A DNA stretch of 36,752 nucleotides from a virus. The stretch is from positions 1 to 36,752 of IMG/VR virus record IMGVR_UViG_3300018481_000044; one strand, given 5' to 3'. Under the pieces are notes generated by a model. The model saw only the letters and a list, made by a program, of their open reading frames with translations, did no database searches and was not told where the DNA came from. How positions within the stretch are numbered: the first letter of the stretch is position 1; each line of letters opens with the position of its first letter. This document shows, one piece after another, positions 754 to 34,709 of the stretch. The translations under genes and the position numbers were made by a program.

Positions 754-816
754 TCGGCGGTTCAGGAGGCCCGGCCATCGCTACGTTGAAGCCCAATGAT
801 CCTGTGCCGGGCCTCC
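743..816 (+). ncRNA. solitary B-type dual-spacer hairpin (with compact hairpin before it)
   Basis: The main hairpin spans 765-816. Its 11-bp stem (765-775 with 806-816; GGAGGCCCGGC/GCCGGGCCTCC) closes a 30-base loop of the form C, ATCGCTACGT, TGAAGCCC, AATGATCCTG, T. This is exactly the loop grammar of the large array at 14082-16702, but the outer stem bases differ and still pair. A compact hairpin CCGCCGA-GTGA-TCGGCGG at 743-760 lies just upstream and includes the stop codon of the previous gene. The unit sits in the leader of the gene at 845, sense to it. It could be a stand-alone guide, an RNP-binding regulatory site, or an ancestor of array units. Confidence 0.85.
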
Positions 817-6493: not shown

Positions 6494-6729
6494 CTCGCCT
6501 GCGCATCGGCCGCCTCCCGCATCACTTGAAGTTTGTGTTGCTCGCGCTCCAAATGCTCTTCGGCATAACGCATCAGCTTCAACAGCGCATTTGCTCTCGC
6601 CTCTGCCTTGGCAAGCTCGCCCTGCGCCTCACCGGCTTCGCGCCGCAGCACGGTGTGAACATCATGCAGACTCATCACGATATCGGCCTGCGCCCGGAGC
6701 GGATCAAACGCGGCCATTATTCGACTCAT
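6490..6729 (-). CDS. small coiled-coil protein
   Basis: 79 residues from the ATG at 6729, chosen because it overlaps the helicase stop as ATGA; an ATG two codons earlier is also possible. The sequence is an almost continuous Ala/Glu/Arg-rich helix (AGEAQGELAKAEARANALLK). It is probably a coiled-coil accessory protein coupled to the helicase. No family recognised. Confidence 0.6.
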   Translation of the reverse strand: MSRIMAAFDPLRAQADIVMSLHDVHTVLRREAGEAQGELAKAEARANALLKLMRYAEEHLEREQHKLQVMREAADAQAR

Positions 6730-8285
6730 TGCCAAGCACGATCACGCTCCTCACGCTTGCGTTTTGAATTCGCGATCATGCGCGACGTGATGTAGTTGAG
6801 CGTTTCAGGACGACACCACTTCGCCATCGGCGCATGCTTGATCGTTGGGTGGTTCGGCCAGACGCCGGTCTTGTCCTTGTACACCATCGAGGCCCAGCCC
6901 GGCTTATAACGCTGGCGATAGCCGTAGTACTTTAACTCAGCAAAGAATTCCGCCTTCTCTTCCATCGTGTCAACGCGCAGCGGATCCGGCGGCGGCTTCG
7001 GCTTGCCCTTTAGCTCGCGCGTCATCTCCTGTAGCTCGCCAGCATCCGGCTTGATCTTGCTCACCACCACCGCGACGAAGCCGCACGCTGGACACTTCGC
7101 TGTCGCTGGCGGCTTGAGGTACGCGCACTGCGGACACTCCTTCGGAAGCCTGATGCCTTCGGTGCGGTTGTCGTGCGTCGGCGTCTTGGCGTGATGCAGC
7201 CCGGTGTATGATTCATCGATGCTGGTGACGAAACCGAGCCGCAAATGGTTGTCGCTGTGATCGAGGATCAAACAGTCCTGCTTGCCCGGTGCCGTGCGCA
7301 AGCCGCGCCCCACGATCTGCACGAACAGCATATCGCTCTTCGTGGGTCGGCACATCGAGATGCATCGCACATCCCAGTCGATGCCGACCGTGAGCGTGCC
7401 GACGTTGCACACGACCTTGTAGGTGCCGTCATGGAAACCAGCTTTGATCGAGCGGCGGCCCGGAATGCGCCTGCCGGTGTCCTTCTCGATGCGATCAGCA
7501 TCAGGAGTGTACGCGTCTTGGTATGCACAGCGGACTCCCGCCGCCTCGAACTTATCCGCTAGCGCCTTGGCGTGCGCGCGATCCACCGCATAGCAGAGCG
7601 TCGGCCGGTTCTCTCCAAGCTTGATCCACGTGGCAACTGCGTCGCCAACGAGCTTGCCTTGCTGCATCGCCTCTGAAAGCTCGCCTTCATGATAATCGCC
7701 AGCCACTGTCCGCACGTTCGAAAGGTCTGGATGAGACGGGGCAAAAACCCGGAATGGCGCGAGGAAACCAGCATCGATCATCTGCCCCGTTGTGCTCGCT
7801 TTATAAAAATGCGTGTACCAATTTCCTAAATGCTTCGTCCATGGTGTCGCGGAGAGTCCGATGATCGGCACCTCCGCGAACTCCGGCATCTTGTCGCGAT
7901 GCATCAGCTTCTCATAGAACTTGAACCACCTGTGGCATTCATCGATCAGGATGATGTCGGGGTCCGGCATCTTCCGCTTCATCAGCGTCTGCACCGACGC
8001 AACTTGGATCGGTAGATTCCAATTGGTTAAATGATGCGACGCTTGGATAACCCCCACTTCAGTGATGCCGTGCGACGCAAACATCTCGACGGTCTGATCG
8101 ACCAGTGAGATGGTCGGCACGGTGAATAGAACCTTCTTCCCCTTCTCTCGCGCGCTCTCGACCAATGCGCATGTGAGAACTGTTTTGCCCCACCCCGTGG
8201 GCGCTTGCATGCAGATTCGGAATTGCTTTTCCGCCACCGCCCGACGCAACGCATCGAGCGCTTCGCCCTGATCCTCTCTCAACAT
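6726..8285 (-). CDS. SF2 DEAD/DEAH-type helicase
   Basis: 519 residues. Superfamily 2 motifs in order are Walker A APTGWGKT (28-35), DECH (115-118), SAT (145-147) and motif VI QIVGRGLRT (323-331). A four-Cys zinc ribbon (C384, C387, C398, C401) follows the second RecA lobe. This is the architecture of the Res-subunit/UvsW-like phage helicases that use ATP to unwind or remodel DNA during replication and recombination. No nuclease domain is attached. ATG at 8285 follows AAAGGAGCAAACGA. Its leader carries a solitary dual-spacer hairpin (8313-8358) in the sense orientation. Confidence 0.9.
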   Translation of the reverse strand: MLREDQGEALDALRRAVAEKQFRICMQAPTGWGKTVLTCALVESAREKGKKVLFTVPTISLVDQTVEMFASHGITEVGVIQASHHLTNWNLPIQVASVQTLMKRKMPDPDIILIDECHRWFKFYEKLMHRDKMPEFAEVPIIGLSATPWTKHLGNWYTHFYKASTTGQMIDAGFLAPFRVFAPSHPDLSNVRTVAGDYHEGELSEAMQQGKLVGDAVATWIKLGENRPTLCYAVDRAHAKALADKFEAAGVRCAYQDAYTPDADRIEKDTGRRIPGRRSIKAGFHDGTYKVVCNVGTLTVGIDWDVRCISMCRPTKSDMLFVQIVGRGLRTAPGKQDCLILDHSDNHLRLGFVTSIDESYTGLHHAKTPTHDNRTEGIRLPKECPQCAYLKPPATAKCPACGFVAVVVSKIKPDAGELQEMTRELKGKPKPPPDPLRVDTMEEKAEFFAELKYYGYRQRYKPGWASMVYKDKTGVWPNHPTIKHAPMAKWCRPETLNYITSRMIANSKRKREERDRAWQ

Positions 8286-8312
8286 TCGTTTGCTCCTTTG
8301 TGAAAAAGCGAA

Positions 8313-8358
8313 GGCCCGGCAACTCTCATCTGGGATTCACTACACCGGTGGCCGGGCC
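8313..8358 (-). ncRNA. solitary B-type dual-spacer hairpin, minus strand
   Basis: Read on the minus strand: stem GGCCCGGC/GCCGGGCC (8 bp) closing a loop C, ACCGGTGTAG, TGAATCCC, AGATGAGAGT, T. The loop length is 30 and the grammar is the same as in the array at 14082-16702. It lies between the stop of the 55-residue gene and the ribosome site of the helicase, so it would be in the helicase leader. The core octamer differs by one base (T for R) from the array consensus. Confidence 0.85.
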
Positions 8359-8371
8359 TCCTATCGTCGCA

Positions 8372-10033: not shown

Positions 10034-10396
10034 TCACCCACGCCGTGTGGCGAAGCCTCTCGGCTTCCTGATGCGCCATGCCGTCAGGTACGCGATGTTG
10101 CCGTTCGAGTTCAGCACAGCTTTCCTGCCGCATCTCTCAATCCAGCCTTTATCCTCCAGCGGCGCGAGCCGGGGCGACACGGACCACGAAACGGAATCGC
10201 CCGGTTTTCCCAACTCGTTGTGCAGATAGCGAGAGATGCAGAGGCTGGTCATTGGCACGCCGGTTGCGCGAAGCACGCTGTAAACCATCATCTCGGAATT
10301 GGTGCGGTTGATCTTCGCGGCGGCAAGTTGCGACGTCTCAGGATCGCTATTCCGTGCGTAGGCTTCCGTCTCAGGGTCATCGAGGTCGTCAGTCAT
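10034..10396 (-). CDS. winged-helix-like DNA-binding protein
   Basis: 120 residues from the ATG at 10396 (GGGAGCAAACC upstream). The first 35 residues are acidic and polar. After 'NRTNSEMMVYSVLRATGVPM' comes 'SVSPRLAPLEDKGWIERCGR', which has the order helix, helix, helix, wing expected for a winged helix-turn-helix, with the closing R-K-A-V-L strand. Probably a phage regulator or replication accessory protein. No specific family is assigned. Overlaps the resolvase stop by 4 bases. Confidence 0.6.
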   Translation of the reverse strand: MTDDLDDPETEAYARNSDPETSQLAAAKINRTNSEMMVYSVLRATGVPMTSLCISRYLHNELGKPGDSVSWSVSPRLAPLEDKGWIERCGRKAVLNSNGNIAYLTAWRIRKPRGFATRRG

Positions 10397-10923
10397 GGTT
10401 TGCTCCCATGAGAAAACAGCGGCGTCGAATGCGCAGCGAGCTTCGGGTTGAGCCACGCACATTGAAAATCCCAGAGCGCGCAGGCGTCGCTCTCGTCGGT
10501 CGTTTGCACATCCCAACCCAGCATCCGGCATTGATCGAACGTGGCTTGCTTCGCCATCGCGCTCTTCATGTTCGCGCCGATGAAATGCACGCGCACATCA
10601 GCTACGCGCGCCTCGCGCAATTCGATGCGCTCGTAAGCCCACTCTTCCAAATGCTCGGTGAGACCGACCAGAAGCTTGATCGTTTCAATATTCGTCTTGC
10701 CCGCCATGATGCTCGGCACCGCCGGACTCTCGAACACGATCATGTCGGGAGTCGTCGCCCACTTCGCATTCAGCCAGCGCCGGAATTCTCGATAGATCAG
10801 CGCGCGCGGTGATCCCGGCTTGGCGAAGCGCAGGTGCCCGAATTTCGGGATCGAGCCGGGTGCGCCATAGCACCAGCCGGTGGTGGTCGCGAGATCGAGC
10901 GCGAGAACGCGACCTTCAAACAT
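10393..10923 (-). CDS. RuvC-like Holliday junction resolvase
   Basis: 176 residues from the ATG at 10923, which overlaps the end of the upstream gene. The RNase H-like/RuvC catalytic set is visible: D10 in VLALDLATTTGW, E65 in MIVFESPAV, and D143/D146 in TTDESDACALWDF. This is the usual tetrad for two-metal cleavage of branched DNA. Length and motifs fit phage RuvC-type resolvases, which resolve replication or recombination intermediates. It is 3 kb from the Nop-like protein and on the other strand, so a joint action is only conceivable. A longer frame to 11055 is rejected because it runs through the upstream gene. Confidence 0.8.
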   Translation of the reverse strand: MFEGRVLALDLATTTGWCYGAPGSIPKFGHLRFAKPGSPRALIYREFRRWLNAKWATTPDMIVFESPAVPSIMAGKTNIETIKLLVGLTEHLEEWAYERIELREARVADVRVHFIGANMKSAMAKQATFDQCRMLGWDVQTTDESDACALWDFQCAWLNPKLAAHSTPLFSHGSKP

Positions 10924-11428
10924 GCTCAGGACTGCGCGCGATAAGGTCTGTCCATGGCAATAGATATTTCTGTTGGACGAACCACGCTGGAGGACGCCCG
11001 CCATACGTCTGTATCCACTCTTCTCGCTGCGCATCGCGCGCGAGCATGTAGCCACGAATGATGAAGCGAGGTGCCTTGCCGGTCATTAGGATGAAGTAGT
11101 TATCAGGGTTGTCACCCCTGTAAGTCTCCGTCTTCGGGCGGATGTAGAGATCGTAACTATGACGCGAGCGGGTCCGGACCTGAAGGTTTTTCCCGATGTC
11201 CGGCGCGCTGAATGTGTTCACGCTTGGCGACCAGAACCGGTTGAGAAGCTTTGCGGCCCCTATCTCGCCACAGGCACCTTCGATGTGGATATTCCACGGA
11301 TCGTCGCCCTTCTCCTCATCGAAACCATTTGCTGGCTCAAGGCCAGCCGCCATGGCCGCAATGTTGCGCATGATCCCGCAGTGCGCGCCCATCGCCACTT
11401 CGCGCATGGTCAGGATGACTTCGCTCAT
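10916..11428 (-). CDS. phage protein, possible PD-(D/E)XK-type nuclease fold
   Basis: 170 residues. The segment 'HIEGACGEIGAAKLLNRFW' (about 48-66) followed by 'APDIGKNLQVRTRSRH' (about 75-90) has the E ... D-x(n)-QVR layout often seen in divergent PD-(D/E)XK folds where Gln/Arg replace E-x-K. The C-terminal half is beta-rich. The assignment is weak because the key Lys is missing. It lies within a cluster of DNA-metabolism genes and overlaps its neighbours on both sides. Confidence 0.55.
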   Translation of the reverse strand: MSEVILTMREVAMGAHCGIMRNIAAMAAGLEPANGFDEEKGDDPWNIHIEGACGEIGAAKLLNRFWSPSVNTFSAPDIGKNLQVRTRSRHSYDLYIRPKTETYRGDNPDNYFILMTGKAPRFIIRGYMLARDAQREEWIQTYGGRPPAWFVQQKYLLPWTDLIARSPEHV

Positions 11429-11595
11429 CGTCCCCTCCCGCTGCGCCGTGCCTTGATGTTCGTCTTGATCTTCTCGACCTTGCCGCGCACCTTCTCCTTG
11501 ATCTTCCCTTTGATCTTCTCGCGGCGCGGCCCGACGTTCTCCTCACGCATGCGCCGCAACTCCGCCTCGCGCGGTCCCATCTTTTTCTCGCTCAT
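11425..11595 (-). CDS. small very basic protein
   Basis: 56 residues from the ATG at 11595, preceded by AAAGGAGCCACGAGCT and overlapping neighbours as ATGA on both sides. Composition is extreme: Lys/Arg/Glu-rich with a repeated 'EKIKGKIKEKVRGKVEKIK' pattern, i.e. an amphipathic charged helix. Likely binds nucleic acid or another acidic partner. No family recognised. Confidence 0.65.
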   Translation of the reverse strand: MSEKKMGPREAELRRMREENVGPRREKIKGKIKEKVRGKVEKIKTNIKARRSGRGR

Positions 11596-12320: not shown

Positions 12321-13351
12321 TCGGCGGCCTCAGCCGGAGCCTCATTGCCCCAACGCTCCCACCCCTTGCGCGCCTTGCGCGCGTTAAGCTCAATCTTCGG
12401 CAGATCGGAATAGTATTCCTCAATCATCTCATAAACCGCGTCGGGCTTTTCGCTGTGCCTGCGGCGTGGCGCTTGGATGACCGAAGGCCACTGCGTGCCC
12501 TCCAGCGGAGCCGAAATGTTTCCGCGCGTGCCTACCAGCAAGTGCTCGTGCTGATTCCGATTCCAATAGCCGGTGCCAGCCTTGTCTTTGACCCACACGA
12601 AGTTGCTGACGTAATCGAACCCCCACGCGGTCATGACTTCGAGCGCGTGCGGCAGCATCGGGACGGTTGCCCAGAGGAACAGCACACAGTCATCCGCGCA
12701 GATCGACGGCACATCGCGCGCCTTGATGTCTTCAAGCGTGCTGGTCGGGTACTGGTTGTCCGCAGAGGTACCGTCGAGCCCTTTCTCCGACCACGCTTCC
12801 CACCTCCATTCCGGATCGGCAAGAATCACGGCGAAGGTGCGCTGCGGCAATGCCTCGATCTTGTCGGATAGCTCCCTCATGCGGCTATCCCGCTTCGCCT
12901 TCTTCACCTTGTGGCGTTCAGCGCGCGCTTCCTTGATCACCTCGATATAGTTTTCGGCAGCCGCTACCACGATGCGGATGCGCTGCGCGATCATGGCCTC
13001 TTGCTTGGCTCGCGGTAGCCTAGCCAGTGCCTGCCAGCGGCTCGACTGAATCTTGCTGACGCCAAGATCGGAGAGCTTGGGAAGCTCCCGTGGTAACTTC
13101 GTGTTACCACGGGACAGCGTATCCTTGCTCTTGGCGCGCTCGCCGCCCTTCGCCATCGTGATCAGCAACTCGCCCGCGCGCACCTCCGCATGCAGACGAA
13201 TATCGGTAGCCATGCCAATCAGTTCGCCGTCCCTCGCTTGCTTGGCGTAGGTCTGCATGGCAATCGCTTTGTCGCGGATCGTCTTCACCTCATCGACCCG
13301 CGTTGCTTGCGCAAGCGCTTTGCGTACCGCGTCGTATTTAACGAGCTTCAT
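12317..13351 (-). CDS. MT-A70-like adenine methyltransferase
   Basis: 344 residues from the ATG at 13351, chosen for AAGGAGG at ideal distance; an in-frame start at 13375 has none. The C-terminal half (about 165-335) fits the MT-A70 family: 'FAVILADPEWRWE' places a DPEW motif at 179-182 where the usual sequence is DPPW. It is followed by 'LFLWATVPMLPHALEVMTAWGF', 'GYWNRNQHEHLLVGTRG' and 'RRHSEKPDAVYEMIE'. Family members transfer methyl groups from AdoMet to the N6 of adenine in DNA or RNA. The N-terminal 160 residues are helical and resemble a ParB-like or HTH-type recognition region, not certain. The Pro-to-Glu change in the catalytic motif is unusual and might alter activity. Confidence 0.8.
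   Translation of the reverse strand: MKLVKYDAVRKALAQATRVDEVKTIRDKAIAMQTYAKQARDGELIGMATDIRLHAEVRAGELLITMAKGGERAKSKDTLSRGNTKLPRELPKLSDLGVSKIQSSRWQALARLPRAKQEAMIAQRIRIVVAAAENYIEVIKEARAERHKVKKAKRDSRMRELSDKIEALPQRTFAVILADPEWRWEAWSEKGLDGTSADNQYPTSTLEDIKARDVPSICADDCVLFLWATVPMLPHALEVMTAWGFDYVSNFVWVKDKAGTGYWNRNQHEHLLVGTRGNISAPLEGTQWPSVIQAPRRRHSEKPDAVYEMIEEYYSDLPKIELNARKARKGWERWGNEAPAEAAE
13086..13114. repeat. perfect 12-bp inverted repeat inside the methyltransferase gene
   Basis: Arms TCCCGTGGTAAC (13086-13097) and GTTACCACGGGA (13103-13114) with a 5-base loop containing TTCG. It falls in codons of the methyltransferase N-terminal region (around SRGNTKLPREL). In RNA it would make a very stable UUCG-type hairpin; in DNA it would be a symmetric protein-binding site. 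Confidence 0.7.
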
Positions 13352-13441: not shown

Positions 13442-14071
13442 ATGAGTCTCGAAACCCTTGCTAAGACCGCACTGGTCAAGAGCGGCGGTGACATCGAAAA
13501 AGCACTTCCCCAATTCGTCCGCGCGGTGCGTACGGCGAATCTGATTGACGATCTGGCGCGTAAGTATCTCAGCCAGATCGCCAGCGGGTCCGGCCAGAGT
13601 GAGAACGAAACCCGGAGCGCGGCTGCCGGACCCGCATCTCCAAAGCACAAGCTCGGCTCGATCAAGGTGCCTCAATACGACGTCAAGCCACACCGCCGCC
13701 GGACCCACGCCGAGAAGCAGGCCGCGCTCGCCGCTGCGGCTGCCTCTATCGAGGCTGTGTTCGAGCTTGAGATCAACGGACGCGCCATCGGCAATATCCG
13801 CTTCGGCGAACTGGCCGCGCTGCGCCACGATCTCGTGGACGATGCATCGAGCAAATTGATGTTAGGCATCGATGCAGCCCGCGCCGCCGTGCTCGCCGAA
13901 TTGATTCAGAACCACGCGGTCGTGCCAGATCATTCCGCGCGCGTGCGTGACGTGATCGACGCCCCAACCCTCAGGGGACTTGTCGCGGAGGCCGAAGAGG
14001 AAGCGCCGCGCCGGATCGCCGAAGCAATGCGCCGCGCCTCCGGTGCCATCGAGAACAGGAGCGTAGCATGA
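13442..14071 (+). CDS. unknown protein co-transcribed with the guide array and Nop-like gene
   Basis: 209 residues from the ATG at 13442 behind AAAGGAGCAAACCCCCT. Three parts are visible: an N-terminal helical segment (residues 1-45), a basic Ser/Pro/His-rich linker with 'KPHRRRTHAEKQ' (about 46-85), and a C-terminal helical domain with 'INGRAIGNIRFGELAALRHD' and a long Glu/Ala/Arg helix at the end. No catalytic motif is visible. Its stop overlaps the ATGA at 14068, where the array begins, so it is the first gene of that transcript. It could be a partner of the RNP, for example an RNA-binding or targeting subunit, or an unrelated early gene. Confidence 0.7.
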   Translation: MSLETLAKTALVKSGGDIEKALPQFVRAVRTANLIDDLARKYLSQIASGSGQSENETRSAAAGPASPKHKLGSIKVPQYDVKPHRRRTHAEKQAALAAAAASIEAVFELEINGRAIGNIRFGELAALRHDLVDDASSKLMLGIDAARAAVLAELIQNHAVVPDHSARVRDVIDAPTLRGLVAEAEEEAPRRIAEAMRRASGAIENRSVA

Positions 14072-14081
14072 AAAACGAAAA

Positions 14082-14492
14082 CGGTCGCCGAGTGGCTGAT
14101 GAAGACCCGAGAAGTGGTGCGACCGCGCCCCCGGCCAGTGGTGATGTGAAGCCCGTGACACTCTTGCCGGGGGCACCTAAAAAGAAAAACGGTCGCCAAC
14201 CGAGTGCTGACACCCTTGGCAGCCATGCGACCGCGAGCGCGGCCACCGCAGAGTCGAAGCCCTTACCGCCAGTGCCGCGCTCACCTAAAAACGGTCGCCT
14301 TGCAACTGATGTAACCCAGCGCAAGATTGCGACCGCGCCCCCGGCCAACGCACGCGTGAAGCCCAAAGAAGACTCGCCGGGGGCATCTTCTCGAACCGCT
14401 CGCCAAGGTGGCCTTGACGCCCGTCTGACATGTGCGAGCGCGCCCCCCGGCCAGAACGCACCTGAAGCCCAAATAAGCTCTGCCGTGGGGGC
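14082..14492 (+). repeat. TIGR-like dual-spacer guide array, upstream part (8 hairpins)
   Basis: Four A-B hairpin pairs. A units: 14082-14125, 14190-14233, 14292-14335, 14397-14440 (7-bp stem CGGTCGC/GCGACCG; the fourth is CGCTCGC/GCGAGCG). B units: 14127-14174, 14235-14282, 14337-14384, 14442-14492 (stem variants GCCCCCGGC/GCCGGGGGC and GAGCGCGGC/GCCGCGCTC; the last has a bulged T). A and B are one base apart; B-to-A linkers are 9-12 bases, once 15. Loops follow C-N10-octamer-N10-T, total 30 bases, octamer TGAARCCC with variants. The first and eleventh loop bases are often A, so the true spacers may be 9 bases. The strand is given by the octamer and by the flanking genes. Confidence 0.93.
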
Positions 14493-15378
14493 GACTTCTT
14501 CTATTGTCGAGACCATCCGCGCACATCACCGCGCGCGGCGATTCGCCATGGGCATTCAGCAGGTTCTTGATAACAAGCTTGGCGCATTCGTCCGGATTAA
14601 CGCGACCGACTGGCATCCCACCGACGATGAATCCGAGCGCACGAAGGCGAACAAGGAAGTTGCCGTAATCATCAAGGCGGCCCGCGAAGGTCAAGGCGAT
14701 CCGCTCATCATCGGAATGGTCGCCGTGACCGACAAGGCGCGCGAGCCTGCTGACGCTGAGCGCGCGAAGCACGAGAAAGCGATGGAGACTCTCGCCAAGC
14801 AGTTGCCGGTGGCTGCATGGGTCGAAAACATTCCCGGCTTCGGCATGCTTGGACTCGCAACGATCATCGCCGAGACCGGTGACCTCGCGATGTACTCGAA
14901 CGTGGCCAAGGTCTGGAAGAGACTCGGCTACGCACCGTACAAGGACAAAGCGGGCTCGACGTGGAAAAGGCCGAAGTGGCGCAACGCGGATGCGCTCACC
15001 GCTGAGGAGTGGACCGAGAATCCATTCTCAGGTCGGCGCTACGCTTTGATCCACACCATCGGAGTATGGCTGAAAAACAAACAGTGGGTTGGAGCCGCGA
15101 AGACGGAGGACGGCGTCGGTATTCCGAATGGATATTACGGCACGGTCTACGCCGCGCGGCGTGCGCACACATCGATCACGCACCCCGAATGGACAAAAGC
15201 CCATGCTCATATGGATGGGCTCAGGGTGATGATGAAGCAGGTCTTGAAGGACCTATATTTAGAATGGAATCAAATCGGTCGCCAACACTGGCCTGAAACC
15301 CAACGAGCCCGTGCGACCGCTGGTGACCCGGCCCGTGTGTTGGTGCAACCCAAAGAACATTTGCCGGGCTCACTCTAA
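14485..15378 (+). CDS. Nop-like / IS110-transposase C-terminal-domain protein (TasA-like)
   Basis: 297 residues if started at the GTG at 14485; other starts are ATG 14548 and, with the best ribosome site (AGGAG, ATGA overlap), ATG 14068, which would translate eight hairpins as a low-complexity leader. The conserved part begins at 'VETIRAHHRARRF'. Residues 112-152 (WVENIPGFGMLGLATIIAE, then GDLAMYSNVAKVWKRLGY) match the helix-hairpin-helix type Transposase_20 domain of IS110-family proteins, which is related to the Nop domain of box C/D RNPs. A helical region follows, ending in HAHMDGLRVMMKQVLKDLYLEW near residue 261. The N-terminal DEDD/RuvC nuclease of IS110 transposases is absent and no HNH is seen. 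The last 36 codons overlap hairpins A5/B5. Placement inside the array argues that it binds these RNAs, as the nuclease-less TasA form of TIGR-Tas would. A relic IS110 transposase is the alternative. Confidence 0.8.
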   Translation: MGATSSIVETIRAHHRARRFAMGIQQVLDNKLGAFVRINATDWHPTDDESERTKANKEVAVIIKAAREGQGDPLIIGMVAVTDKAREPADAERAKHEKAMETLAKQLPVAAWVENIPGFGMLGLATIIAETGDLAMYSNVAKVWKRLGYAPYKDKAGSTWKRPKWRNADALTAEEWTENPFSGRRYALIHTIGVWLKNKQWVGAAKTEDGVGIPNGYYGTVYAARRAHTSITHPEWTKAHAHMDGLRVMMKQVLKDLYLEWNQIGRQHWPETQRARATAGDPARVLVQPKEHLPGSL

Positions 15379-16694
15379 ATGACGAACGGTCGCCAGTGTC
15401 GCCTTGAAACCCTATGCGCTTGCGCGACCGCGAGCCCGGCCAATTCACCGATGAAATCCGGAGGAGCCATGCCGGGCTCACCTTTTTTTGACACGGTCGC
15501 CAGAGAACCGTTGAAACCCTTGATGCTTATGCGACCGTTGAGCCCGGCCAAGCGAAGAATGATACCCACGCAGGTATTGCCGGGCTCACCTATTTCCGAA
15601 ACGCTCGCCAATTCACCCATGAAGCCCAGAAGGTACTTCGCGAGCGCGAGCCCGGCCCGGTACGCGTTGAAGCCCATTCGATCCATGCCGGGCTCACTCT
15701 TCCAAAACGGTCGCCAACGCGGTGGTGAAACCCGCATCCGGCTAGCGACCGCGCCCCCGGCCATCGCACTTCTGAAACCCAAAGCATGCGTGCCGGGGGC
15801 ATCTATTCAAAACGGTCGCCAAAGCTCCACTGCAAACCGGCGTTCCGGTGCGACCGCGAGCCCGGCCATTAAAGTATTGAAACCCACGACACTTGCGCCG
15901 GGCTCACCTTTCTACGCTCGCCACAAGGCTTGTGAAGCCCACCGACGATCTGCGAGCGCGAGCCCGGCCACCATTGCAATGAAACCCATTGGGTGCTTGC
16001 CGGGTTCACCTATCCAAACGGTCGCCAGCGTCGCCTTGGAACCCAATGCGCTTCTGCGACCGCGAGCCATGGCCAGAGTCGGGCTGATGCCCAAAGATGG
16101 TTTGCCATGGCTCAACTTCTTTACGGTCGCCGGTGGACCATTGAAATCCAGCACCCCGACGCGACCGCGAACGCTCGCCGAAGCGCGGCTGAAATCCGCT
16201 ATACTGATGCGAGCGCGAGCCCGGCCATGCCCATCCTGAAGCCCAGACGTATCGTGCCGGGCTCACTCTTCTTCCAAAACGCTCGCCAGTTCACCCATAA
16301 AAACCTGAAGGTACCAGCGAGCGCGCCCCCGGCCACCAGTGCAATGAAGCCCAACGAAGGCGTGCCGGGGGCATCTTTTCGATACGGTCGCCTCATCAGC
16401 TTTGAAGCCCACTCAAGCGGTGCGACCGCTGAGCCCGGCCATCAGCACCATGAAACCCGCTGGTCGCGTGCCGGGCTCACCTATTCCGAAACGCTCGCCG
16501 ATTCGCGAATGAAGCCCAGAAGCCCGATGCGAGCGCGAGCCCCGGCCCAATGTTGCTTGAAACCCAGTCGGCCCGTGCCGGGGCTCACCTATTCGATACG
16601 GTCGCCACGGTTTTCTTGAAGTCCAAAACAGTGATGCGACCGCCGAGCCCCGGCCACCCGGCAAGTGAAGCCCAACGTGATCGTGCCGGGGCTC
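15276..16694 (+). repeat. TIGR-like dual-spacer guide array, downstream part (27 hairpins)
   Basis: A units start at 15276, 15387, 15494, 15602, 15708, 15813, 15915, 16019, 16124, 16172, 16280, 16385, 16492 and 16599. B units start at 15323, 15432, 15540, 15648, 15753, 15858, 15960, 16064, 16217, 16325, 16431, 16537 and 16645. Most A units are 44 bases and most B units 48. One A unit (16124) lacks a B partner and is followed 4 bases later by another A. Stems covary between CGGTCGC/GCGACCG and CGCTCGC/GCGAGCG (A), and between GAGCCCGGC, GCCCCCGGC, GAGCCATGGC and GAGCCCCGGC with matching 3' arms (B). The octamer TGAAACCC/TGAAGCCC dominates; spacers are nearly all different. Linkers from B to A often read ACCT-TTCnnAA. 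This is a tandem guide-RNA locus, not a CRISPR array. Confidence 0.95.
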
Positions 16695-16702
16695 TTTTTT
16701 TT
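16645..16702 (+). terminator. last B hairpin doubling as intrinsic terminator
   Basis: The final B unit has stem GAGCCCCGGC/GCCGGGGCTC and is directly followed by eight T (16695-16702), unlike the other units whose 3' arm continues with ACCT. It would end the array transcript and separates it from the convergent gene ending at 16701. Confidence 0.85.
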
Positions 16703-17988: not shown

Positions 17989-18081
17989 GGTCGCCTGCGC
18001 CTTGTTGAAGCCCTTATCACCAGTGCGGCCAACGCCCCCGGCCACTTGATGCGTGAAACCCAGAGCGCGGGTGCCGGGGGC
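17989..18081 (+). ncRNA. solitary A+B dual-spacer hairpin pair in the exonuclease leader
   Basis: The A unit (17989-18030) has stem GGTCGC/GCGGCC including a G-T wobble and loop C, TGCGCCTTGT, TGAAGCCC, TTATCACCAG, T. The B unit (18034-18081) has stem GCCCCCGGC/GCCGGGGGC and loop C, ACTTGATGCG, TGAAACCC, AGAGCGCGGG, T. The architecture is the same as one repeat of the main array, 1.3 kb away across three leftward genes. It lies between the promoter and the AAAGGAGCA ribosome site, sense to the gene at 18106. Confidence 0.9.
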
Positions 18082-28774: not shown

Positions 28775-28859
28775 TTAATGATCCATGATGAAGTGTGAGG
28801 GCGGAGCGGCGGCCAATGACAATCTGAACCCCAGAGATGCGGTGCCTCCGATCTCGCCC

Positions 28860-29719: not shown

Positions 29720-29962
29720 TCACCGCGCCTCCATCACCATGGTCTCGACGCCCGGCATCTGCGCGGCCTGCACGAGGAAGTCATCCCACTCTTCCGCAGG
29801 CCCGACGATGCATTCATGGAGATGTAAGCGACCGAGCCTGTCATCCTCGCCGCTATGCGAGCGCGCCTTGATGCGCTGGCACTCCTCACGCGAGCCGCGA
29901 TAGAACTCGATGATCAGCGAGCCCTCTTCGGTGAAGAGCTTGTAGGTCACGACCCATTTCAT
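29720..29962 (-). CDS. small phage protein between tape measure and gpU genes
   Basis: 80 residues from ATG 29962, overlapping the tape-measure stop as ATGA. Mixed fold (KWVVTYKLFTEEGSLIIEFY, then a His-rich 'RLHLHECIVG'). P2 has no gene here, so this is an insertion in the tail operon. Function unknown; a tail-assembly or host-interaction role is only suggested by position. Confidence 0.6.
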   Translation of the reverse strand: MKWVVTYKLFTEEGSLIIEFYRGSREECQRIKARSHSGEDDRLGRLHLHECIVGPAEEWDDFLVQAAQMPGVETMVMEAR

Positions 29963-32900
29963 GCTGCACCTATGTCTGAATAAGAATTCCACCGCGCCTC
30001 CCGCACTTCACGATCCGCCGAGCGCCGCATGCTCGTGCGCGCGAACTGCACTTGTGCATCGTTGACCTTCACATTGAGTTGCAGATCGCGCTCTTGCGTC
30101 GTGGGCGTCGCAGGAACGGGCGTTGCCGCTGGCCGCTCAACCGGCTCTGCCGCGCGTGCCGAGCCAGTCCTTGGCGCAGGCGTTGCCGCCACACGCGCGC
30201 GCTCTGCTTGCTGCGCTGCGATCTTCGCGCGGTCCTCTGCGGCAGTATCCAGAAGTCTGCCTTGAGCGTCGCGCTTCTCCTCGTGGAGATGCGGGCCTGT
30301 TGAACGTGGGTCTTTTGCTTTCAACGTGCCGAGCGGCTGCCCCTCCGCAACCGTGTCGCCAACCTTCACATTCGGGTCGACATGGCGGTACGTGCTGGTC
30401 GTACCGTCTTCATTCTGCACCGTCACGTCGCCATGCTCGTTGACGCCGGTCACCTTGCCGCCGTGGCGTGAGCGAAACTCCGAGCCAGCCGGACCCGGTG
30501 TGTCGGTGCCTGCATGCAGCTTGCGGCGGCCAGTGATCGGATGGACACGCTCGCCTACGCCGGAGGAAATGCGCTTGCCAGCCGGTAGCGTACTGGTTGG
30601 CGATCCGGTGTCGGGCGTCTCGGTTGATGTCACCGGCGTGGCTGGCGTCGAGCCCTTCGTCGGCGTGCCGGTCGCTGTCGCGGTCCAGCCCCGCCGGTTC
30701 TTCATCTGGAATTCGCTCTGGTCTTTCGGGTTCTCGAACTCGCTCGTGAGCGTCGAGACGTTCTGCGCACGGTTCGTCGGATCGGCTCCCATTAGCGCAG
30801 CGCGTGTGCGCTTGTATTTTCCCGACATGGCCTCATGCGCCATGTAGCGCGACTGGCCTTCGAGGCTGTTGCGCGCGTAGCCGTGCTTGTCGAGCCAGTT
30901 GAACATGGCAGTGCGCCGCTCAAGACGAGCGCCGTAGATGCCGTATCCGGTGCCGCTGTCGTGCGATGTGTCGGGTTGCAGCTTGCTTTCGGTCAGAGCC
31001 TGACCGGCAAGCAGGTTCGCAGCCTCCTTGATGTTCGCCTCTGGCACGCCCTCTTTGCGTAGCTGATCCTCCATCGCTTCCTTCGCGGTCGCGATGCGCT
31101 CGCCAATCTTCCCGCTCGCAGCCGGGCCGGTCGTCGGTCCCGTGGGTCCTGTCGGCCCATCCCCGCCGCGTGTCGCCCCGCGCGCGAGGCTCCCGCGTGG
31201 CCCGTAGTCGGTGCCAAGCCCGCCGGGACCCGCGCCGCCGGGGCCGGTATCGCCGGGTCCCCGAGCGCCGCCGGGGCCGCCCCAGAGATAGCCGCGACCG
31301 CTCGGCGTGTAGGACGCTGGGAGCACGCGCGCGTCGCCGCTGCCGCCGTACGTGCGGCCCTCTTCCGCTCGACGCGCTTCGGTTTCGACTCCGATGTTGC
31401 GCGTGCCTGCGCCGGTGGTGCCCTCGCCAGAAGTAGGGCCAGCGCCCATACGCACGCCGTACGCGCGCGGGGTAAACGCAGCCCTGACGAGTTGCGCGCG
31501 CTCGCTGTCCGGGAGCGCTTCAGCAAAGGACACGAGCTTCTTGGTCGCGTCGTCAAGCGCCGAGCCCATCTTCTGCAACATCCCCTCCGGGCGTCCCGGG
31601 GATGGAGTCGGCAGCAACGGTGTGGGCAACAGGCGCGGTCGAGCGGATGGCTCGTGCGGAGGCAGCATCGGGCTGACGCCCGGCCCCCGCCCCGGCCTCT
31701 CCGGGATCACATAGTTGGGGAAGCGCTTTCTCGAGTCCGCATCCAGTTTCTCGCGCTCTTGATCGGCCGCGTCCTCACGTGCCTTCTTCGCCTTAGCGAT
31801 CCCCTCAAGCTGTTCTTTATCGAGCTTCTCTTGGAATTCCTTGACCGTCTTGTCGTAATATTCCTGACCGCCGCGCTCGTAATCCGCGTACGGCACGATG
31901 GGCTGATCACCCTCGCCGCCAAAATCTTGGGGGGTCTTGGCCCATTGGCTATATTTGAATTCCGCCCACGACTTCGGCATGCCCTTCGGCATGACGTCAG
32001 ACAGGCCGACAATATATTTCAGTCCGCCAACGATGCGCTCAACGGAAGTCGCAATTGCCGTCATCGTTGCCGCGAGCGCTTCGATTCCTGCCGTGACACC
32101 GATGGCGTTGAGCAGTAACCCGAGCGAGTTTCTTAGCTCCTCAAGTGAAGTCATCAGCCGCTTGATTGCAAACTCCGGTCCCGCTTCGACATACTTGCCG
32201 CGCGCTACCGCCCCCTGTGCCTCGCGCACGCCCTTGAGTTTATCGGCGAACGTACGCAGTTCACCCATCAGTCTGGTGTAGGAAGCCTTGTCTTGGATAT
32301 CGAGCGCCTTCATCACGAGGTCTTGGTTATCGGCCTGCGTCATCAGGCTGATCAACTCGCCAATCGGGTCCTGCACCGAGCGCAAATACTTTTCGAGTTG
32401 ACCAGCGCCGAAGCCGAGCGCCTTGCCCATGCGGTCGTTGCCAAGATCACCAAGGATGCCGATGAGCGCTGAGCCTGCCTTGGCGGCGCTGCCGGTGCCT
32501 TCCTTCAACACACCGAAGAGCGTGACGGCGCGCTGCATCGCATCGACACCCTGATAGCCCCACGTCGCCATGTACGCAGTCGCCTGCGACAGACGCGGAC
32601 CCATCTCCTCGATGTTGATGTTGAATTGACTGTTGGCGTGCGAGAACGCCTCCATCACGTACTTGTATTGATCGGCGGGAATTTTCAGGTTGCGCATGAT
32701 GTCGCCAACGGCGCGGTTGAACAGCTTGGCGTTCGCGTTAGCGCCGTTCGCAGCCGTCGTCAGGTCGGGCATCATCTTCAACGCTTCTTCAGGCGTGAAA
32801 TTCCCGGCCTCACGAATTTCATTGAACGCCTCAAGCAACTCCTTCGATGACACGCCGGTGATCGCGGCTAGTCTCTTCATCTCAGTGCCAAGGTCGTGAA

Positions 32901-33375
32901 TTTTCTGTTCCGACAATCCGGTCTGGTTTCGCGTCAACCGCAATTGATTGTCGAACGCAGCGAAACCCATGAAGCCCTGCTTCAATTGGTTGAGGGCTTC
33001 GTAGGCGGTCAGCGCTCCGCCCGCCATTCTCGCGAGCCCGCCGACAATCGGCGGAATCTGCGCGCCCATGAATTTGAAGGCGCTGCCGCCCTGTTGCCCT
33101 GCCTGAACGGCTGCTTGGCCCGCCTGACGATGCTTGTTGACCAGCGCGTTCTCGCCGTCGATAGCTTTCTTGTGGTTGGCGAGTAACTGATCGTAGGAAA
33201 GATTGCTTTCCTTCGCGCGCTCGCGGATCGCGCGCGTGTTGATCATGTGGCCCTTATAATCCTCGTAGTCCTTCTTGACCTCCTTATTCAGGTCCCTGAA
33301 ATTCTTGGTCGCCGACTTGACCGCCGGGCCAGTATTGTCGACGCCATCAATGTAGATCGTGGTTCGTTCGTTCAT
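29959..33375 (-). CDS. tail tape measure protein with lysozyme-like and M23 domains
   Basis: 1138 residues. The N-terminal 550 residues are helical with the tape-measure pattern 'YQGVDAMQRAVTLFGVLKEG' and a hydrophobic stretch at about 415-455. A Gly/Pro-rich linker follows (about 560-755). Then a lysozyme/transglycosylase-like block (about 755-915, with 'AGQALTESKLQPDTSHDSGT' and 'GYGIYGARLERR'), and an M23-type metallopeptidase (about 930-1030: 'GVGERVHPITGRRKLHAGTD' and 'GPHLHEE' with the HxH metal ligands). The tape measures tail length and the two enzyme domains would locally open peptidoglycan during DNA injection. ATGA overlaps on both sides. Confidence 0.85.
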   Translation of the reverse strand: MNERTTIYIDGVDNTGPAVKSATKNFRDLNKEVKKDYEDYKGHMINTRAIRERAKESNLSYDQLLANHKKAIDGENALVNKHRQAGQAAVQAGQQGGSAFKFMGAQIPPIVGGLARMAGGALTAYEALNQLKQGFMGFAAFDNQLRLTRNQTGLSEQKIHDLGTEMKRLAAITGVSSKELLEAFNEIREAGNFTPEEALKMMPDLTTAANGANANAKLFNRAVGDIMRNLKIPADQYKYVMEAFSHANSQFNINIEEMGPRLSQATAYMATWGYQGVDAMQRAVTLFGVLKEGTGSAAKAGSALIGILGDLGNDRMGKALGFGAGQLEKYLRSVQDPIGELISLMTQADNQDLVMKALDIQDKASYTRLMGELRTFADKLKGVREAQGAVARGKYVEAGPEFAIKRLMTSLEELRNSLGLLLNAIGVTAGIEALAATMTAIATSVERIVGGLKYIVGLSDVMPKGMPKSWAEFKYSQWAKTPQDFGGEGDQPIVPYADYERGGQEYYDKTVKEFQEKLDKEQLEGIAKAKKAREDAADQEREKLDADSRKRFPNYVIPERPGRGPGVSPMLPPHEPSARPRLLPTPLLPTPSPGRPEGMLQKMGSALDDATKKLVSFAEALPDSERAQLVRAAFTPRAYGVRMGAGPTSGEGTTGAGTRNIGVETEARRAEEGRTYGGSGDARVLPASYTPSGRGYLWGGPGGARGPGDTGPGGAGPGGLGTDYGPRGSLARGATRGGDGPTGPTGPTTGPAASGKIGERIATAKEAMEDQLRKEGVPEANIKEAANLLAGQALTESKLQPDTSHDSGTGYGIYGARLERRTAMFNWLDKHGYARNSLEGQSRYMAHEAMSGKYKRTRAALMGADPTNRAQNVSTLTSEFENPKDQSEFQMKNRRGWTATATGTPTKGSTPATPVTSTETPDTGSPTSTLPAGKRISSGVGERVHPITGRRKLHAGTDTPGPAGSEFRSRHGGKVTGVNEHGDVTVQNEDGTTSTYRHVDPNVKVGDTVAEGQPLGTLKAKDPRSTGPHLHEEKRDAQGRLLDTAAEDRAKIAAQQAERARVAATPAPRTGSARAAEPVERPAATPVPATPTTQERDLQLNVKVNDAQVQFARTSMRRSADREVREARWNSYSDIGAA

Positions 33376-34630: not shown

Positions 34631-34709
34631 GTGAGCGAGTGCTCTCGCTCACTCTGGTGCGCCCGGCCATTACAGTCATGAAACCCTTGTAGGGATTGCC
34701 GGGCGCACC
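34631..34709 (+). ncRNA. solitary B-type dual-spacer hairpin, antisense to the tail operon
   Basis: Stem GGTGCGCCCGGC/GCCGGGCGCACC (12 bp, 34656-34667 with 34698-34709) encloses C, ATTACAGTCA, TGAAACCC, TTGTAGGGAT, T. The octamer is on the plus strand, whereas flanking tail genes are on the minus strand. A compact hairpin GTGAGCGAG-TGCT-CTCGCTCAC (34631-34652) sits 3 bases upstream, as in the unit at 743-816. After the B arm comes TTTTCG. It lies in the spacer between sheath and tube genes. Confidence 0.85.

Follow-up and report, generated by a model that had tools for sequence, protein, structure and literature searches.

The soil-phage virus record IMGVR_UViG_3300018481_000044 (36.8 kb; its full 36,752 nucleotides are referred to here as the window) harbors tandem hairpins around and within a gene, tas, for a Nop/IS110-like RNA-binding protein. 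Profile matches, the anatomy of the hairpin array, and a structural model support the assignment of this locus as a stem-loop TIGR-TasA system. It comprises the following features.

13442-14071, plus strand: gene X, 209 aa, the open reading frame (ORF) directly 5' of tas, which it overlaps (ATGA)
14068-15378, plus strand: tas ORF, 436 codons, its ATG start overlapping the gene X stop (ATGA), with the ribosome-binding site (RBS) AGGAGC
14082-14490, plus strand: upstream array, four A-B pairs (8 units) in frame within the tas coding sequence
14500-15273, plus strand: Nop/IS110-like RNA-binding core of Tas (TasA-type), 258 aa
15276-15368, plus strand: first downstream pair, within the tas ORF, encoding its C-terminus
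15387-16694, plus strand: downstream array, 25 units in A-B pairs, with an A-A exception at 16124/16172
16645-16702, plus strand: final B hairpin and T8, fold -27.6 kcal/mol, z -3.0

Thirty-five hairpins occupy 14082-16694, and the gene they surround matches Transposase_20 in Pfam (E 8e-5), both in agreement with an original prediction made from the DNA letters. Stem A (CGGTCGC or CGCTCGC) is found in 18 hairpins and stem B (GAGCCCCGGC and variants) in 17. The two follow each other in repeated A-B order, with 0-2 nt between A and B and an A/T-rich linker of 9-15 nt between pairs; the A-A step at 16124/16172 is the sole departure. Stem closure is imperfect in three A units. The loops were predicted to read C-N10-TGAARCCC-N10-T throughout. 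Although this frame holds, the octamer is exactly TGAARCCC in only 20 of the 35 units, and the remaining units deviate by one to three bases. The two variable segments are likewise present, but each has nine freely varying bases (0.02-0.33 bits of information per position) instead of the ten proposed, base 1 being mostly A (0.55-0.80 bits); octamer positions carry 0.7-2.0 bits. Read in order, a unit comprises box C (CCA), 9-nt spacer A, box D (UG), AARC, a second box C (CC, with the next base mostly A), 9-nt spacer B, and a closing box D (UG), an order already published for TIGR arrays (PMC12045711). Unit edges are hairpins of 7-12 bp, whereas the dual-repeat TIGR-Tas type has short, stemless edge repeats of 8-12 nt; that type is ruled out by the hairpin edges, and the palindromic edges place the array in the stem-loop type.

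A CRISPR array, with its identical repeats of 25-36 nt and spacers of similar length, was also rejected: Tandem Repeats Finder reports none at this locus, and the spacers are 9 nt long and split. No Rfam family matches the window above its gathering score. The final B hairpin and the eight T that follow it read as an intrinsic terminator at the array end. Two sets of diverged duplicate guides occur within the array, one at 15602-15646 and 16280-16323 (AATTCACCCA and AGTTCACCCA), the other at 15387-15430 and 16019-16062 (AGTGTCGCCT and AGCGTCGCCT), a pattern that suggests unit duplication and spacer drift. A weak unit-like match outside the array, at 28805-28852 (25.7 bits), is possibly degenerate.

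The hairpins are not a chance pattern: a covariance model of the unit finds 38 matches in the window at E <= 0.1. At E <= 0.001 it finds zero units in ~950 kb of DNA from 18 records of related phages that yielded no close Tas relative; one of these records holds a weak Tas-like match (E 1.8e-9). Across 60 units, both sides of the stem vary at eight of its nine pairs, and the covariation score of 0.967 compares with 0.203 for shuffled and at most 0.203 for slid structures. Because these 60 units were preselected for pairing, their paired percentage is biased; the diversity of pair types is still informative. When IMG/VR is searched by RNA pattern only (GGCC-N10-TGAARCCC-N10-TGCC), ~25 of the contigs retrieved also encode a Tas homologue.

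The protein points to the same family. Transposase_20 is the only Pfam match of the Tas core, and the Pfam scan contains no RuvC or HNH nuclease. The NCBIfam model TIGR_Tas (NF052498, TIGR-Tas endonuclease) matches the core at E 1.2e-16, with a score of 61.4 bits that lies below the model's cut-off, and matches all 20 Tas relatives at E <= 0.01. A profile built from these 20 relatives finds TasR (PDB 9mty) at E 1.6e-11 and TasH at E 3e-4. Foldseek comparison of the AlphaFold model of the core (predicted local distance difference test, pLDDT, 92.4; predicted template-modelling score, pTM, 0.86) returns TasR 9mty (E 5.6e-5, probability 1.00) and TasH (E 1.9e-4) as the best PDB matches, followed by the IS621 recombinase. 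Membership in the TIGR-Tas group, as first proposed, therefore draws support from profile, NCBIfam model, fold, and array anatomy. The nuclease-less TasA form named in the same proposal also fits, since no nuclease domain was found in the protein. Pfam's sole naming of Transposase_20, together with a PHROGs label of transposase, might suggest the remnant of an ordinary IS110-family element lying beside unrelated repeats. This explanation is exceedingly improbable: the closest solved folds are TasR and TasH, ahead of IS621; arrays recur with Tas homologues in the ~25 contigs above; a second IS110 domain is not found in the core; and the Pfam scan contains no N-terminal DEDD RuvC-like domain of IS110, Tas consisting of the 258-aa core only. 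The N-terminal extension of the tas ORF is array-encoded. Close Tas relatives are found neither among plasmids nor in a first genome scan; a profile search of genomes recovers 12 distant relatives, mostly in alphaproteobacteria. A Tas homologue accompanied by six or more units occurs on a Bacteroidales genome contig (L235); the unit type therefore extends beyond alphaproteobacterial elements.

Gene X is a conserved partner that accompanies tas in the close relatives analyzed. A homologue adjoins tas in nine relatives, upstream in eight and downstream in one (L011). Gene X has no match in Pfam or PHROG, and its model (pLDDT 79) finds no match in a PDB fold search. The three elements are missing together from L246 (G037), which is ~80-97% identical to L048 and L106 in shared stretches: at G037 ~10380-11505 other genes, one with a DnaJ-like stretch, stand in place of gene X, tas, and the array. 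What remains in G037 is a degenerate unit plus an orphan pair in front of recT.

The units were predicted to flank the gene. They do lie on both sides, but the ORF at 14068-15378 also takes in all eight units upstream and the first pair downstream. The tas ATG at 14068 overlaps the gene X stop behind AGGAGC, which places the eight units inside the tas coding sequence, and the same ATGA overlap between tas and its upstream gene occurs in the relative L002. In the upstream array the A-to-A spacings are 108, 102, and 105; these and a further spacing of 111 within the tas ORF are all multiples of 3, while spacings in the rest of the downstream array are mixed in this respect. In L028 a whole array forms a 441-codon ORF with its own RBS, and 16 of 16 spacings are divisible by 3. 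L106 has a 120-codon array ORF with ATGA overlaps with both gene X and tas, and further relatives carry in-frame units at the tas N- or C-terminus. No probability is attached to these spacings, which are not independent because units may have spread by duplication. Stop-free length was rejected as a sign of array translation, as the downstream array likewise has long open frames.

Six more units lie outside the array and the originally stated range of 14068-16702, bringing the window total to 41. The window also carries genes for tail, sheath-like, helicase, RecT, exonuclease-like, and MT-A70 methylase proteins; 29959-33375 encodes a tape-measure protein whose domains include peptidase M23 and tail lysozyme. 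The dispersed units are listed here.

767-814, plus strand: solo unit within the leader of the 845 gene; the guide-less hairpin CGCCGA-GTGA-TCGGCG lies in front of it
8312-8359, minus strand: solo unit within the helicase leader (gene at 6726-8285, minus strand)
13586-13633, plus strand: solo unit in frame within gene X
17989-18081, plus strand: A-B pair (17989-18030 and 18034-18081) directly 5' of the RBS of an exonuclease-like (DUF3799) gene
34659-34706, plus strand: solo unit opposite in strand to the tail genes around it, in contrast to the other dispersed units

Both leader solo units, at 767 and 8312, sit close to the RBS of the gene that follows. In the relative G002, every one of at least eight solo units lies 5' of a gene, mostly with a short guide-less hairpin in front. 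Such positions raise the possibility of riboregulation, in which Tas bound to leader hairpins would control the translation or stability of the phage mRNAs in which those hairpins lie and the spacers would not be used on DNA. In favor of this role, a same-strand gene contains or directly follows five of the six dispersed units, several of which sit just 5' of the RBS, and the coding-region units stay in frame. A regulator, however, would have no use for 9+9 freely varying bases, and highly variable spacers occur at positions that are conserved: in front of the 845 gene and of its G002 counterpart, the two units agree in place and stem but share no spacer. Solo units also come and go among close relatives. 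The window has units at 767 and 8312 that L148, with a 92% identical helicase, lacks, and the unit at L148:1690 is found only in L148 of the two. Units are thus quickly gained and lost; the inserted stretch at 8312 has ACAAAG repeats on either side. Riboregulation is accordingly judged unlikely. The B units before recT at L048:6999, L106:9259, and L246:9356 are orthologous, with similar but drifting spacers (GGGGCACGTG, AGGGGACGTG, and ACGGCACATG), and their A partners are completely different. The drift in these B spacers looks codon-like.

The pairing of A and B units invites another explanation, in which each pair forms a bridge-RNA-like molecule with four spacers that joins two DNA sites, for example to aid recombination by RecT and the exonuclease. 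The TIGR paper likens the IS110 bridge RNA to two fused tigRNAs (PMC12045711), strict pairing is kept in L028, L011, L048, L106, L095, and L112, and one pair directly precedes the exonuclease gene. Solo units, by contrast, have a guide-less hairpin in the place of a guide-bearing A partner, the one convincing target (below) belongs to a solo unit, and the published stem-loop TIGR array is processed to single hairpins (PMC12045711). These observations leave a four-spacer bridge decidedly improbable.

Target rules derived from TasR (PMC12045711) predict an 18-bp site composed of spacer A followed by reverse-complemented spacer B, with gap 0. A search with 319 units against 1.12 Mb of phage DNA yields two exact matches under this rule and zero at six other gaps, and three pair-shuffled control sets yield 0, 1, and 0. 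Other orientations and spacings (rcA+B, A+B, and B+A; gaps -4 to +5) give no exact match. One site stands out.

7323-7340: 18-bp protospacer at codons KSDMLF of the helicase gene (sequence AAGAGCGATATGCTGTTC), matched by the solo unit L094:11838

The matching unit belongs to the sister phage G033 and agrees with the helicase gene of the window at 18 of 18 positions, contiguously and on opposite strands. Spacer base 1 is unpaired at the helicase sites, as expected were it part of box C. A scan of IMG/VR places the G033 18-mer in five contigs, four times in an orthologous helicase gene and once elsewhere. The helicase site is a convincing candidate for a natural protospacer of the G033 unit. Paired targets on opposite strands, which the original prediction expected of the spacers, thus appear for the G033 unit, but none of the 41 units of the window has a confident target. 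The proposal of competition with other phages fares similarly: it gains one sister-phage case and none for the window's own spacers.

Several other target candidates were set aside. Matches with 2-3 mismatches were discarded because they are no more frequent than in controls. In a peptide-level search the helicase peptide alone stood out, yet one shuffled control scored equally high. The match of the G002 unit at 12454 to L221, L181, and L094 falls within a repetitive coiled-coil stretch and counts as weak. The composite target of one G002 unit has no exact match in IMG/VR. Across all units, gap -1, at which the half-targets overlap by one base, shows an excess of matches with 1-2 mismatches.

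A TIGR-TasA locus with a stem-loop array, found in a Peromyscus gut sample and carrying 13 stem-loops, has already been described (Faure et al., 2025; PMC12045711). It shares with the present locus a nuclease-less Nop protein, tandem hairpins, two short box C/D-bounded spacers, and a split array. The locus described here differs in its 35 units, strict A-B pairs, in-frame tas units, dispersed leader units, conserved partner gene X, and true conserved loop octamer. TasR and TasH (PDB 9mty, 9vzx) likewise have a Nop fold, UG and CCA boxes, and 9-nt spacers, and read their target with A and B on opposite strands, as is predicted here; in the present locus RuvC or HNH is not found and hairpin edges replace the short edge repeats. 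IS110/IS621 with its bridge RNA (PDB 8wt9, 8wt6) has a similar C-terminal RNA-binding domain and paired guide segments in hairpin loops; the present locus differs in having no DEDD domain by Pfam and many units in place of one two-loop RNA. Text searches of the main TIGR paper and of one review return no description of dispersed, scattered, untranslated, or in-frame units. Measured against those texts, what appears to be new is an array kept in frame, the dispersal of units, their strict A-B pairing, the partner gene, and the candidate natural target. The locus also resembles box C/D small nucleolar ribonucleoproteins (snoRNPs; Nop5/Nop56/58) in its Nop-type protein, C/D-bounded guides, and dispersal of guides across the genome. 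The snoRNPs target RNA with fibrillarin and L7Ae, whereas neither a fibrillarin- nor an L7Ae-like partner was noted at this locus, and phage DNA holds the only matched target.

The favored interpretation, which is held to be probable, is a stem-loop TIGR-TasA system of a tailed phage whose guides would be trimmed from mRNAs and direct DNA binding against rival phages. Arrays and gene leaders would be transcribed along with phage genes. Tas might bind the hairpins while host RNases trim single hairpins out of the mRNA, as in the published stem-loop array. A Tas dimer with one hairpin would then occupy an 18-bp DNA site, with spacer A reading one strand and spacer B the opposite one. Bound Tas, which has no nuclease, may bend the DNA and keep a competing, related phage from being transcribed or replicated. 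Ten units are part of the tas ORF and their trimming would destroy tas mRNA, so the supply of guides and the synthesis of Tas should restrain one another. A more specific form of this scheme, in which in-frame units and mobile leader cassettes tie guide supply to the genes that carry them, Tas limits itself, and rival phages are attacked, is offered only tentatively.

Several observations weigh against the favored interpretation. The NF052498 score falls short of the equivalog cut-off of 100 bits. The helicase target belongs to a sister-phage unit, and its later repeats are not independent support because helicase homologues were fetched after the first match; an exact match also arose in one of seven pair-shuffled control runs. 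In 2.3 Mb of related phage DNA, 0 of the 41 window units matched at gap 0 with 0-1 mismatch, and the composite targets of three window solo units have no exact match in all of IMG/VR. Some unit-bearing contigs of 37-73 kb (G003, G035, and G037) have no detectable Tas, which fragment ends or a diverged effector could explain.

Natural TIGR spacer targets and the function of nuclease-less TasA were stated as not known by Faure et al. (PMC12045711). A defined protospacer in the helicase gene of a rival phage would make the purpose of TIGR-Tas testable, and this phage group offers closely related phages that have or lack tas, near-identical genomes that differ in solo guides at one site, and a conserved partner gene. 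If the interpretation is true, guide arrays in frame within an effector gene would represent an unusual dual coding and a possible self-limiting circuit.

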